From Roseateles oligotrophus (GTDB lineage Bacteria > Pseudomonadota > Gammaproteobacteria > Burkholderiales > Burkholderiaceae_C), in contig NZ_JAJIRN010000004.1 of assembly GCF_025717515.1 (NCBI RefSeq), positions 372,001 through 436,000 on the forward strand: a stretch of 64,000 nt of DNA, in the 5' to 3' direction. Both the position numbers and the translations under genes were made by a program. The first letter of the stretch is position 1. Each line of letters opens with the position of its first letter. The notes below the pieces were generated by a model. It had not been told where the DNA came from. It searched no databases and saw nothing but the letters and a program-made list of their open reading frames with translations. Of the stretch, positions 11,003 to 13,819 are shown in pieces.

Positions 11003-12130
11003 TCAGCCGCGCGCCGTTTTCACCGCCTCGCTCAAGACCTTCAAGACCTCGAGCGAATCATCCCAGCCCAGGCAGGCGTCGGTGATGCTCTTGCCGTATT
11101 CCAGCTTCTTGGCGTCGTCCTTGCCGGGGGTGAACTTCTGCGCGCCATCGACCAGATGGCTCTCGACCATCACGCCGAAAATGCTTTTGCCACCGGCCTT
11201 GATCTGCTCGGCCACATCGCGAGCCACATCGACCTGACGCAGATGCTGCTTGGAGCTATTGGCATGCGAGCAGTCCACCATCAGCGTCATGTCCAGCTTG
11301 GACGCGGCCAGGTCCTTGCAGGCGGCGGCCACATTCTCCGCGTCGTAATTGGGCGCCTTGCCGCCGCGCAGGATCACATGGCAATCCTTATTGCCCTTGG
11401 TCTCGACGATGGCGACCTGACCGTTTTTGTGCACCGACAAAAAGTGGTGCGGGCGGGCCGCCGCCTGGATCGCATCGGTGGCGATCTTGATATTGCCGTC
11501 GGTGCCATTCTTGAAGCCGATTGGTGCGGACAGGCCCGACGCCAACTCGCGGTGCACCTGGCTTTCGGTCGTGCGCGCGCCGATCGCGCCCCAAGAAATC
11601 AAGTCGCCAATGTATTGCGGCGAGATCACGTCGAGGAACTCGGAGCCGGCGGGCATGCCCAGCCGGTTGATCTCCAGCAGCAACTGGCGGGCGATGCGCA
11701 GGCCTTCGTCGATGCGATAGCTCTCGTCCAGGTAAGGGTCGTTGATCAAGCCCTTCCAGCCGACCGTGGTGCGCGGCTTCTCGAAGTAGACCCGCATCAC
11801 GATCTCCAGCGTGTCGGCGTACTTCTCGCGCTGCACTTGCAGTTTGCGGGCGTACTCGATCGCGGCGGCCGGATCGTGAATCGAGCAGGGGCCGATGATG
11901 ACCAAGAGGCGGTCATCCTTGCGCTGCATGATCTTGCGGATCTTGCCGCGCGTGCCGGCAATCAGCGGCTCCATCGGCGTGCCTCGAATCGGGAAGAAGC
12001 GAATCAGATGTTCGGGCGGCGGCAGCGGCGTAACGTCGACGATGCGCTCATCATCGGTCAGGCTGGTCTTGTCCTGCGGCGAGTACCAGCGTTCGGCGGC
12101 TTGTTCGGCTTTGGCGTTTTTGGCATTCAT
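11003..12130 (-). CDS. aroG: 3-deoxy-7-phosphoheptulonate synthase, class I (AroF/G/H type)
   Basis: This 375-residue enzyme joins phosphoenolpyruvate and erythrose-4-phosphate in the first step of the shikimate pathway. Family blocks are clear: RLLVIIGPCSIHDP, VYFEKPRTTVGWKGLINDP, SEFLDVISPQY, GARTTESQ, GFKNGTDG and VDCSHANSSK. The N terminus is about 20 residues longer than E. coli AroG. The feedback specificity (Phe, Tyr or Trp) cannot be read with certainty, so the symbol is generic. Upstream lie a leader-peptide frame rich in Phe/Tyr/Trp codons and an intrinsic terminator, indicating transcription attenuation by aromatic amino acid supply. Confidence 0.95.
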   Translation of the reverse strand: MNAKNAKAEQAAERWYSPQDKTSLTDDERIVDVTPLPPPEHLIRFFPIRGTPMEPLIAGTRGKIRKIMQRKDDRLLVIIGPCSIHDPAAAIEYARKLQVQREKYADTLEIVMRVYFEKPRTTVGWKGLINDPYLDESYRIDEGLRIARQLLLEINRLGMPAGSEFLDVISPQYIGDLISWGAIGARTTESQVHRELASGLSAPIGFKNGTDGNIKIATDAIQAAARPHHFLSVHKNGQVAIVETKGNKDCHVILRGGKAPNYDAENVAAACKDLAASKLDMTLMVDCSHANSSKQHLRQVDVARDVAEQIKAGGKSIFGVMVESHLVDGAQKFTPGKDDAKKLEYGKSITDACLGWDDSLEVLKVLSEAVKTARG

Positions 12131-12165: not shown

Positions 12166-12199
12166 AAAAAAAAACCGCCGGGGTGAACCCGGCGGTTTT
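12166..12199 (-). terminator. Attenuator terminator in the aroG leader
   Basis: On the minus strand a GC-rich stem (CCGCCGGG with CCCGGCGG, extended by AAAA/TTTT) encloses a short loop and is followed by nine T residues, 35 bases before the aroG start. Its 5' arm can instead pair with CCGGCGG at 12250-12244 inside the upstream leader frame (7 perfect base pairs), giving a plausible antiterminator. Because it lies between the aroG leader and aroG, it is placed to control entry into aroG and not to end another gene. Confidence 0.8.
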
Positions 12200-12224
12200 C
12201 AGAAATTTGATTTGCGTTTTTGGT

Positions 12225-12296
12225 TTACGCGTTCGCCTCTCTGCCGCCGGTGCGGTGTGAGAACCAAAAGAAAGAATAAAACTTTGGTGAAGGCAT
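12225..12296 (-). CDS. Leader peptide of aroG with aromatic codon cluster
   Basis: This 23-residue frame starts at ATG 12296 and ends at TAA 12225. Residues 6-12 read F-Y-S-F-F-W-F: six of seven codons are for Phe, Tyr or Trp. Codons 16-18 (Thr-Gly-Gly) hold the sequence that can pair with the terminator arm. This is the layout of classic pheA/trp-type attenuators: a ribosome stalling on aromatic codons would favour the antiterminator and let aroG be transcribed. No strong ribosome-binding site is visible before the ATG, which is the weakest point. Confidence 0.7.
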   Translation of the reverse strand: MPSPKFYSFFWFSHRTGGREANA

Positions 12297-12355
12297 GGCT
12301 TGAATGTAGCACGCGAATATTGCGTAGCCGCCGTACTGCTGCGGCCGAACAACAA

Positions 12356-13819
12356 TCAGGCCGTGCCGCCGACCGTCAGCCCGTCGATCCGCAGCGTTGG
12401 CTGACCGACGCCGACCGGCACGCTCTGGCCCTCTTTGCCGCAGACGCCGACACCGGTGTCGAGCTGCATATCGTTGCCAATCATGGTCACGCGGGTCAGC
12501 GCCTCGGGGCCGCTGCCGATGATGGTCGCACCCTTGACCGGGTACTGGATCTGGCCGTTCTCGACCCAGAAGGCCTCGCTGGCCGAGAACACGAATTTGC
12601 CCGAGGTGATGTCGACCTGCCCGCCGCCGAAGTTGGTCGCGTAGATGCCGCGCTTGATGCTGGCGATGATTTCCTTCGGCTCCTTGTCGCCTCCGAGCAT
12701 ATAGGTGTTGGTCATGCGCGGCATCGGCACATGGGCATAACTCTCACGCCTGCCGTTACCGGTCGGCGCCACCTTCATCAGGCGCGCATTCATCGCGTCC
12801 TGGATATAGCCCTTCAGGATGCCGTCCTCGATCAAGACATTGCGCTGCGAGGCCCAACCTTCGTCGTCAACGTTCATCGAGCCGCGGCGGTCCGGCAGCG
12901 TGCCGTCGTCCAAAACCGTGACGCCCTTGGCCGCCACGCGCTGGCCGATGCGGCCGGCAAAAGCGCTCGAGCCCTTGCGGTTGAAGTCGCCTTCCAGGCC
13001 ATGGCCGATCGCTTCGTGCAAGAGCACACCGGGCCAGCCGGGGCCGAGCACCACGGTCATCTCGCCGGCCGGGGCCGGGCGCGAGTCCAGATTCGTCAGC
13101 GCGGCATTGACGGCCTGATCGACATAGCTGGCAATCATCTCGTCGGTGAAATAGGCCAGGCCAAAGCGCCCGCCGCCACCGCCCGAGCCGACCTCGCGGC
13201 GGCCATTGCTCTCGGCAATCACCGTCACGCTCAGGCGCACCAGCGGCCGCACATCGGCGGCCAAGGTGCCGTCGGCGCGCGCCACCAGAATCACCTCATG
13301 CTCGGCGGCCAGGCCAGCCATCACCTGCGCCACACGCGGGTCTTTGCCGCGCGCCATGCGTTCGGTGCGCTCCAGCAAGGCGACCTTTTCGGTGCTGTCG
13401 AGGCTGGCGATCGGGTCGGCCGGGCCATAGAGCGAGCGGCTCTTTGACACGGTGGGATTGGCGGGCACCTTGACGCGGCGGCTCTGGCCGGCGGCAGCAA
13501 TCGAGCGCACTGTCAAGGCGGCGTCGATGATGGCGGCCTCGGAGATATCGTCGGAATAGGCAAACGCGGTCTTCTCGCCGGCCACGGCGCGCACGCCCAC
13601 GCCCTGATCGATGCTGAAGCTGCCGCTCTTGACGATGCCCTCTTCCAAGCTCCAGCCCTCGGAGCGGGTGTGCTGGAAATAGAGGTCGGCGTCATCAACG
13701 CGGTGCTCGGTGATCAATCGCAAGGCTTTGGCCAGCAAGGGCTCGCTGAGGCCGTAAGGCTCCAGCAATTGGCTACGGGCTGCTACCAGGCGGGCAAGGG
13801 TGGGTTCGCGCGAAATCAT
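12356..13819 (-). CDS. tldD: Metalloprotease TldD
   Basis: The 487-residue product is a TldD/PmbA family member. TldD with TldE forms a zinc protease that degrades unfolded peptides and matures peptide antibiotics. The zinc motif HEAIGH (His268, Glu269, His273) is followed by GLEGDFNRKGSSAFAGRIG, typical of TldD and not TldE. Length agrees with E. coli TldD (481). The start at 13819 (MISREPTLARLV) is chosen because the upstream extension is not family-like. No tldE/pmbA is in the window. The stop lies 60 bases before the aroG leader ATG, so the aroG promoter probably overlaps the tldD 3' end. Confidence 0.95.
   Translation of the reverse strand: MISREPTLARLVAARSQLLEPYGLSEPLLAKALRLITEHRVDDADLYFQHTRSEGWSLEEGIVKSGSFSIDQGVGVRAVAGEKTAFAYSDDISEAAIIDAALTVRSIAAAGQSRRVKVPANPTVSKSRSLYGPADPIASLDSTEKVALLERTERMARGKDPRVAQVMAGLAAEHEVILVARADGTLAADVRPLVRLSVTVIAESNGRREVGSGGGGGRFGLAYFTDEMIASYVDQAVNAALTNLDSRPAPAGEMTVVLGPGWPGVLLHEAIGHGLEGDFNRKGSSAFAGRIGQRVAAKGVTVLDDGTLPDRRGSMNVDDEGWASQRNVLIEDGILKGYIQDAMNARLMKVAPTGNGRRESYAHVPMPRMTNTYMLGGDKEPKEIIASIKRGIYATNFGGGQVDITSGKFVFSASEAFWVENGQIQYPVKGATIIGSGPEALTRVTMIGNDMQLDTGVGVCGKEGQSVPVGVGQPTLRIDGLTVGGTA

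Follow-up and report, generated by a model that had tools for sequence, protein, structure and literature searches.

A candidate aromatic-codon attenuator upstream of a DAHP synthase gene in Roseateles, with counterparts across Burkholderiales and in a second gammaproteobacterial order

Some transcription attenuators, such as those of ilvGMEDA and thrABC, are multivalent, in that a single leader combines codons for two or more amino acids made by the same branched pathway. In the Phe_leader family of Rfam (RF01859, the E. coli pheL-pheA type) and in the trp attenuator, control codons are followed by segments 1 to 4 and a terminator, the order that we also find at the locus described here. As for attenuation of DAHP synthase, the sections of two reports that deal with Corynebacterium glutamicum aroR-aroF describe a leader peptide, AroR, with a Phe-Tyr-Phe motif before the DAHP synthase gene, where Phe limitation raises read-through and the supply of Tyr has no effect (PMC11802643, PMC4046766). 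In Acholeplasma, the uORFC-13-1 motif is predicted to place a Phe-reading upstream frame and a terminator in front of aroF; as described in the part of the source devoted to it, the motif differs from our leader in being confined to Acholeplasma and environmental sequences, with 24 representatives and at least one Phe codon (PMC8632094). Attenuation has been predicted before DAHP synthase in Gammaproteobacteria too, in other operons and lineages that we liken to ours by description: putative attenuators are tabulated for Vibrio operons of the aroF-tyrA type (Table 7, PMC1173090), and aroF/aroH leaders are predicted for Shewanella (PMC2659441). The DAHP synthase genes of E. coli are themselves placed under TyrR and TrpR in the passages that treat them (PMC11802643, PMC5343134). 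When the DNA analysed here was first read from its letters, an attenuated DAHP synthase was thought noteworthy against this E. coli background; the contrast with the E. coli repressors stands, while C. glutamicum AroR and the Acholeplasma prediction are precedents that reduce its novelty.

The locus lies in a 64-kb stretch of Roseateles oligotrophus DNA, called the window throughout, where a leader and a terminator sit on the minus strand between tldD, which ends at 12356, and a DAHP synthase gene (12130-11003). The elements are as follows.

12303..12311, minus strand: extended -10 promoter element TGCTACATT, identified by comparison of leaders; it ends 6 nt before the leader ATG.
12225..12296, minus strand: leader reading frame, 23 codons and a stop, MPSPKFYSFFWFSHRTGGREANA; ATG at 12296, TAA ending at 12225.
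12261..12281, minus strand: control codons 6-12, F Y S F F W F, read from the sequence.
12252..12263, minus strand: segment 1, UUCUC (12263-12259) and CCGC (12255-12252), pairing with segment 2 in the fold, with weak covariation.
12237..12250, minus strand: segment 2, CCGGCGGCAGAGAG, within codons 16-20, forming the 5' side of the antiterminator; from fold and covariation.
12189..12205, minus strand: segment 3, UUUCUGAAAACCGCCGG, which supplies the 3' strand of the antiterminator or the 5' strand of the terminator; from fold and covariation.
12170..12200, minus strand: intrinsic terminator stem-loop (segments 3:4), then the rest of a nine-T run; from terminator scan, fold and covariation.
11003..12130, minus strand: class I DAHP synthase gene (aroG-like, 375 aa), the putative controlled gene; from profile matches.

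Like C. glutamicum AroR, the leader places aromatic codons before a DAHP synthase gene, although AroR belongs to an actinobacterium, has a short F-Y-F motif without Trp, and is likened here by description (PMC11802643, PMC4046766) rather than by sequence. From Phe_leader and the trp attenuator it differs in the gene, in reading several aromatic amino acids and in having no Shine-Dalgarno sequence; with ilvGMEDA and thrABC it shares multivalence, with different amino acids and genes. The gene product scored above the cut-offs of TIGR00034 aroFGH (527.9 bits, cut-off 173.2) and PF00793 (316.9 bits, cut-off 25.5). Because it fell below the cut-off of the AroG equivalog model of NCBIfam (NF006723, 538.9 bits, cut-off 568), we use the name aroG at the level of the family only. 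Its nearest named relatives come from a Roseateles MAG (94% identity) and from Pelomonas (85%).

The sequence-only reading had proposed a 23-codon frame upstream of aroG in which six of codons 6-12 encode Phe, Tyr or Trp, followed by a GC-rich terminator with nine Ts. Both proposals were borne out: aromatic residues fill six of these seven codons of the frame at 12296-12225, and the terminator at 12200-12170 has 13 pairs, a loop of 5 and nine consecutive Ts. The leader peptide has no Pfam or NCBIfam match. When both strands of the 64-kb window are searched for at least six aromatic residues in eight codons shortly before a stop, this is the one place that qualifies, and 20 first-order Markov windows generated as a chance control have none; with the threshold lowered to five of eight, the window has 5 such places and the simulated windows a mean of 0.15.

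We then screened the regions upstream of DAHP synthase genes at 131 loci, comprising the two genes of the window's genome, 17 genomes of the same genus, other members of the family and order, and 80 named loci. A loose screen, which asked for at least four aromatic codons in eight within 400 nt upstream of the gene, found aromatic leaders of the same layout at 104/131 loci, at least three of which (L101, L108 and L109) look spurious. A stricter screen that included the terminator was passed by 98, representing 94 distinct leaders once identical stretches were counted a single time (named and unnamed loci overlap, as in L005 and L052). Six loci were dropped before these counts for having no T run by the rule or only four aromatic codons; two of them, L037 and L095, resemble real leaders, and the others are L063 and the spurious-looking L101, L108 and L109. 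The conservation of the frame across Burkholderiales that an attenuator would call for is thus found at 104 loci by the loose screen and 98 by the strict one, with 94 distinct sequences. Examples are MQTRAAIFFGFYFWFSVPGGREARV in Hydrogenophaga (Comamonadaceae), MSAKFYFYFFWYLRPLADREG in Burkholderia and its relatives, and MHSFIFFTGYFYFSDSNPKAVE in Massilia and Rugamonas. Three DAHP synthase genes 67-70% identical to that of the window (L097, L099 and L101) lie on contigs binned as Planctomycetota, Verrucomicrobiia and Gemmataceae; these contigs are probably betaproteobacterial and wrongly binned.

At 27/131 loci the loose screen found no candidate in the 400 nt preceding the DAHP synthase gene; these include 3/17 of the same genus, 3/3 from Polynucleobacter, 2/3 from Cupriavidus and most loci about 60% related or less. 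In two of the 27, L076 has too little upstream sequence and L048 was anchored on the second of tandem genes. The genome of the latter (G056) has two tandem DAHP synthase genes, with a leader-like frame, MLRTAPYFFWFWYPTLLAAGRK, preceding the first. Within the genus, L018 has an intact terminator before the DAHP synthase gene and no leader frame. In L019 and L020, which also have no leader, the terminator arms GCCGCCGGA and ATCCGGCGGC, some 60-230 nt ahead of the DAHP synthase gene, are split by an insert of roughly 150 bp that has inverted ends, AGGGATGCTCT and AGAGCATCCCT, and resembles a small mobile element.

Across the 94 distinct leaders, both synonymous codons are used for Phe (TTT 271, TTC 156) and for Tyr (TAC 93, TAT 71), so the aromatic block appears to be kept as amino acids and not as bases. 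The peptide that follows the block varies and even shifts frame (TGGREANA, PRRLRGDD, TAPAAGEG and KADERQLR are examples), while a GGCGG segment stays constant, which is what one would expect of a part that acts as RNA. Moreover, the last aromatic codon begins 11-17 nt before GGCGG in 79/92 leaders.

The nine-codon core contains Phe in all 94 leaders, Tyr in 90 of them and Trp in 76; 72 leaders have all three. These figures bear on which amino acid is sensed, a question that codons alone cannot settle, so that the 'all-aromatic sensor' of the earlier reading is a suggestion made by the codons. It is no more than that since the C. glutamicum leader contains a Tyr codon and yet the supply of Tyr had no effect. 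A leader that answers a single aromatic amino acid, most likely Phe, with Tyr and Trp codons neutral or secondary, is therefore a serious alternative, if rather less likely than not: Phe is the commonest residue and is found in every leader, Trp is the one most often missing, the Phe-Tyr-Phe leader of AroR responds to Phe and not to Tyr in the sections describing it (PMC11802643), and Rfam Phe_leader is the best sub-threshold match to our leader. Against this, Tyr is kept in 90/94 leaders and all three amino acids in 72/94, and Trp, costly and rare, is retained beside segment 1, at the position of most influence. The Phe_leader match spans the whole model at 31.2 bits, below the gathering score of 55.

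The leader RNA can form alternative structures. CCGGCGG (12250-12244) is exactly complementary to CCGCCGG (12195-12189), the perfect 7-bp pairing with the 5' arm of the terminator that had been predicted from the letters; the prediction was right about the pairing and too short in its extent, since UUUCUG (12205-12200) also pairs with CAGAGA (12243-12238), giving an antiterminator of 13 bp with a 4-nt bulge. For 12250-12184 this antiterminator is the most stable fold (-23.8 kcal/mol, z -3.58, 1/200 shuffles as good). The full element, 12284-12170, folds instead as a 1:2 hairpin (UUCUC/GAGAG and CCGC/GCGG) plus terminator (-41.2 kcal/mol, z -4.16, 0/200 shuffles as good), and for the longer stretch 12310-12150 2/200 shuffles fold as well. 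Removal of segment 1 leaves an RNA that folds into the 13-bp antiterminator. Folding thus gave both of the states that a switch would need, 1:2 plus terminator and antiterminator.

The position of the control codons fits such a switch. If a ribosome is taken to shield 12 nt, counted from the first base of the codon in its A site, all of segment 2 is accessible as long as the A site lies at codon 12 or before, and it is covered once the A site has reached codon 14; codon 12, the last aromatic one, is thus also the last stall position that frees segment 2. In the computed ensembles, when segments 1-3 are present and no ribosome is, the 2:3 antiterminator beats 1:2, and the 1:2 hairpin would be transient at best. 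With segment 4 included, the equilibrium favours the terminator whatever the position of the ribosome, so the switch must be kinetic.

The antiterminator pairing was examined for covariation in an alignment of 93 sequences (L027, with a long assigned frame, was left out). There, 74.7% of cells in the antiterminator are paired, as compared to 72.6% in shuffles (0/500 as high) and 27.7-45.5% in slid controls; the lower helix, CAGAGA with UUUCUG, has 52.7% of its cells paired. At antiterminator pair 50/146 we count CG in 51 sequences, UA in 16, AU in 2, UG in 6 and 18 unpaired (n=93), with both sides changed in 18/93, and at terminator pair 146/162 GC in 62, AU in 22, UA in 2 and 7 unpaired, with both sides changed in 24/93. 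Compensatory changes shared by these two pairs indicate that segment 3 changes jointly with both of its partners. Counts of pairs changed on both sides as high as those observed were reached by shuffles in 73/500 cases for the antiterminator and 136/500 for the terminator, which, with the sparser pairing of the lower helix, makes this side of the case weaker. In a swap test on 64 distinct segment pairs, omitting L038 and L055 as having no exact GGCGG, the helix extends 1.64 bp past the GGCGG core, as compared to 1.20 bp with partners shuffled (0/10000 as high), in shuffles that, like those of the alignment, leave relatedness in place. The covariation of the antiterminator that the earlier reading looked for in relatives is therefore present, in the form of compensatory changes that include the 18/93 at pair 50/146. 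The 1:2 hairpin is weakly supported by covariation: its outer helix has 86.5% of cells paired and its inner helix 57.2%, and slid controls at +2 and +3 equal its covariation score.

Taken together, the frame, the terminator, the alternative pairings, their joint change and the fixed position before DAHP synthase genes support a reading of the aroG leader as a classic ribosome-mediated transcription attenuator, to which we give a probability of about 0.88. Like a trp-type attenuator, it has a leader frame rich in codons for the end products, a terminator between frame and gene, and an antiterminator that uses the 5' arm of the terminator. In the proposed mechanism, the extended -10 promoter would start transcription at the leader ATG or close to it, and a ribosome would trail RNA polymerase through the 23-codon leader. 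Were charged tRNA for Phe, Tyr or Trp short, the ribosome would be expected to stall at codons 6-12, with its leading edge covering segment 1 and segment 2 left free to pair with the emerging segment 3 in the 13-bp antiterminator, so that the terminator would not form and transcription would read through into aroG. With aromatic tRNAs charged, the ribosome would move into codons 14-24 and cover segment 2, upon which segments 3 and 4 would pair and transcription would presumably end at the T run.

To follow the distribution of the element, a covariance model (R1) was built of leader plus terminator. In the window's genome it scores the aroG site at 106.7 bits, the next match, at 28.1 bits, being a terminator that has no such leader. 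R1 matches 194/200 genomes of the window's family and, at E<=0.001, 95/300 of the order; 82 rows in the order span the whole model (78 of them at E<=2.5e-5), and those that do not are mostly bare terminators. In 274 genomes drawn from the class there are 5 matches at E<=1e-5, three of them in the window's family and two sharing another family. The order to which one of these two belongs is the second gammaproteobacterial order, where R1 matches 69/200 genomes at E<=0.001, with 44 whole-model rows at E<=2.3e-5; leaders there read like MNAARASFYFWYYFPKPLAEEGLRSP, and several keep the pairing of GCUGGCGG with CCGCCAGC. A DAHP synthase gene adjoins 42/42 of the best-scoring matches fetched from other genomes (29 from the window's order and 13 from the second).

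Further matches in the window's genome (L133, L135, L136 and L138, at 28.1, 26.3, 24.0 and 21.0 bits) were inspected as possible additional copies. The first three are terminators behind unrelated sequence, with no leader of the aroG kind. Among the six non-aroG loci fetched from this genome, none has a DAHP synthase gene except L134, a reverse-strand echo of the aroG terminator. L138 (contig C53, about 1500-1600; 21.0 bits, E 0.27) has an FYFLFLLF-like stretch at the end of an open reading frame before a terminator, and this could be chance. The genome's other DAHP synthase gene (L002, G000 C12:31925-32980, 59% identical) lacks a leader of this kind in the 400-500 nt before it; nearby short frames that contain three aromatic residues do not share the layout. 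In genomes with two DAHP synthase copies, the leader was seen here only with the window's type. By the loose rule, the trpE-like locus L169 likewise has no aromatic leader upstream.

This distribution bears on whether the terminator simply ends the tldD transcript, with the aroG promoter located after it and the aromatic frame a coincidence. The tldD gene does lie on the same strand, ending only 60 nt before the leader frame, and three of the 17 same-genus loci (L018-L020) keep the terminator or its halves where the leader frame is absent. This explanation is nonetheless very improbable, because it accounts for neither the aromatic frame nor the 2:3 pairing, both of which persist across many families and in two orders, and because the extended -10 box precedes the leader and is not found downstream of the terminator. 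Even less credible is a regulatory protein or small ligand that binds the leader RNA, with translation of the frame incidental: nothing speaks for it beyond the fact that sequence can hide binding sites, the aromatic block is conserved as amino acids, which an untranslated RNA would not need, and in the 64-kb window no Rfam family, riboswitch or other, scores as high as its gathering threshold.

Having favoured ribosome-mediated attenuation, we turn to where the leader transcript begins. The pattern TGnTAnAnT ends 6-9 nt before the leader start codon in 63/93 distinct leaders, as compared to 1/456 upstream slices of 25 nt; in 45 of the 63 it reads TGCTACATT, and in 36 it ends exactly 7 nt before the start codon. 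This pattern was chosen after viewing the sequences, and among 27 leaders unused for its definition it recurs in 9, including 7/7 of the window's family. No -35 signal was found at the 93 leaders (mean best match 2.17, as compared to 2.23 shuffled), and a sigma-70 consensus scan of the locus returned no promoter, the extended -10 box having come from the comparison of leaders. A Shine-Dalgarno-like 4-mer at -18 to -5 occurs in 0/93 leaders, as compared to 53/80 DAHP synthase starts of the same loci, and in 1/29 further leaders examined. Since the extended -10 box ends so close to the start codon, and the leaders show no Shine-Dalgarno-like 4-mer, the leader mRNA at the window's locus is probably leaderless. 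In relatives of Burkholderia and Massilia, boxes resembling TATAAA or TATAGT lie further upstream of the leader, so leaderless starting, if real, would be lineage-specific. In the second order, most of the leader start codons inspected have a TATCAAT- or TATCACT-like box at a comparable distance upstream. The aroR-aroF transcript of C. glutamicum was reportedly found to be leaderless by Neshat and colleagues in 2014. We propose, tentatively and at slightly less than even odds, that in the window's family a leaderless, Shine-Dalgarno-free leader is read from its first base and integrates the supply of Phe, Tyr and Trp into one switch, and that, as the design recurs in the second order, the sensor may depend on leaderless translation.

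In the open-access papers searched we found no report of an aroG leader in Burkholderiales or Pseudomonadales-like genomes, though older comparative surveys could contain one. None of the terms looked for appears in the main text of a study of Burkholderia cenocepacia transcription starts (PMC4603805), and aroG does not appear in PMC2965389. This kind of attenuation is already known; the element is widely distributed in these lineages, and its probable leaderless start is the less usual feature.

DAHP synthase governs the entry of carbon into the synthesis of all aromatic amino acids; the textbook example of its regulation is E. coli, with its repressors. If the attenuator reading is true, much of Burkholderiales and another gammaproteobacterial order control this enzyme by ribosome stalling, which would be relevant to the engineering of aromatic production in these bacteria. 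The set of leaders is suited to asking how codon position sets the weight of each of several amino acids in a single attenuator, and whether a leaderless transcript can support attenuation. Finally, if the sensor depends on leaderless translation as such, it would also respond to conditions that change leaderless translation.
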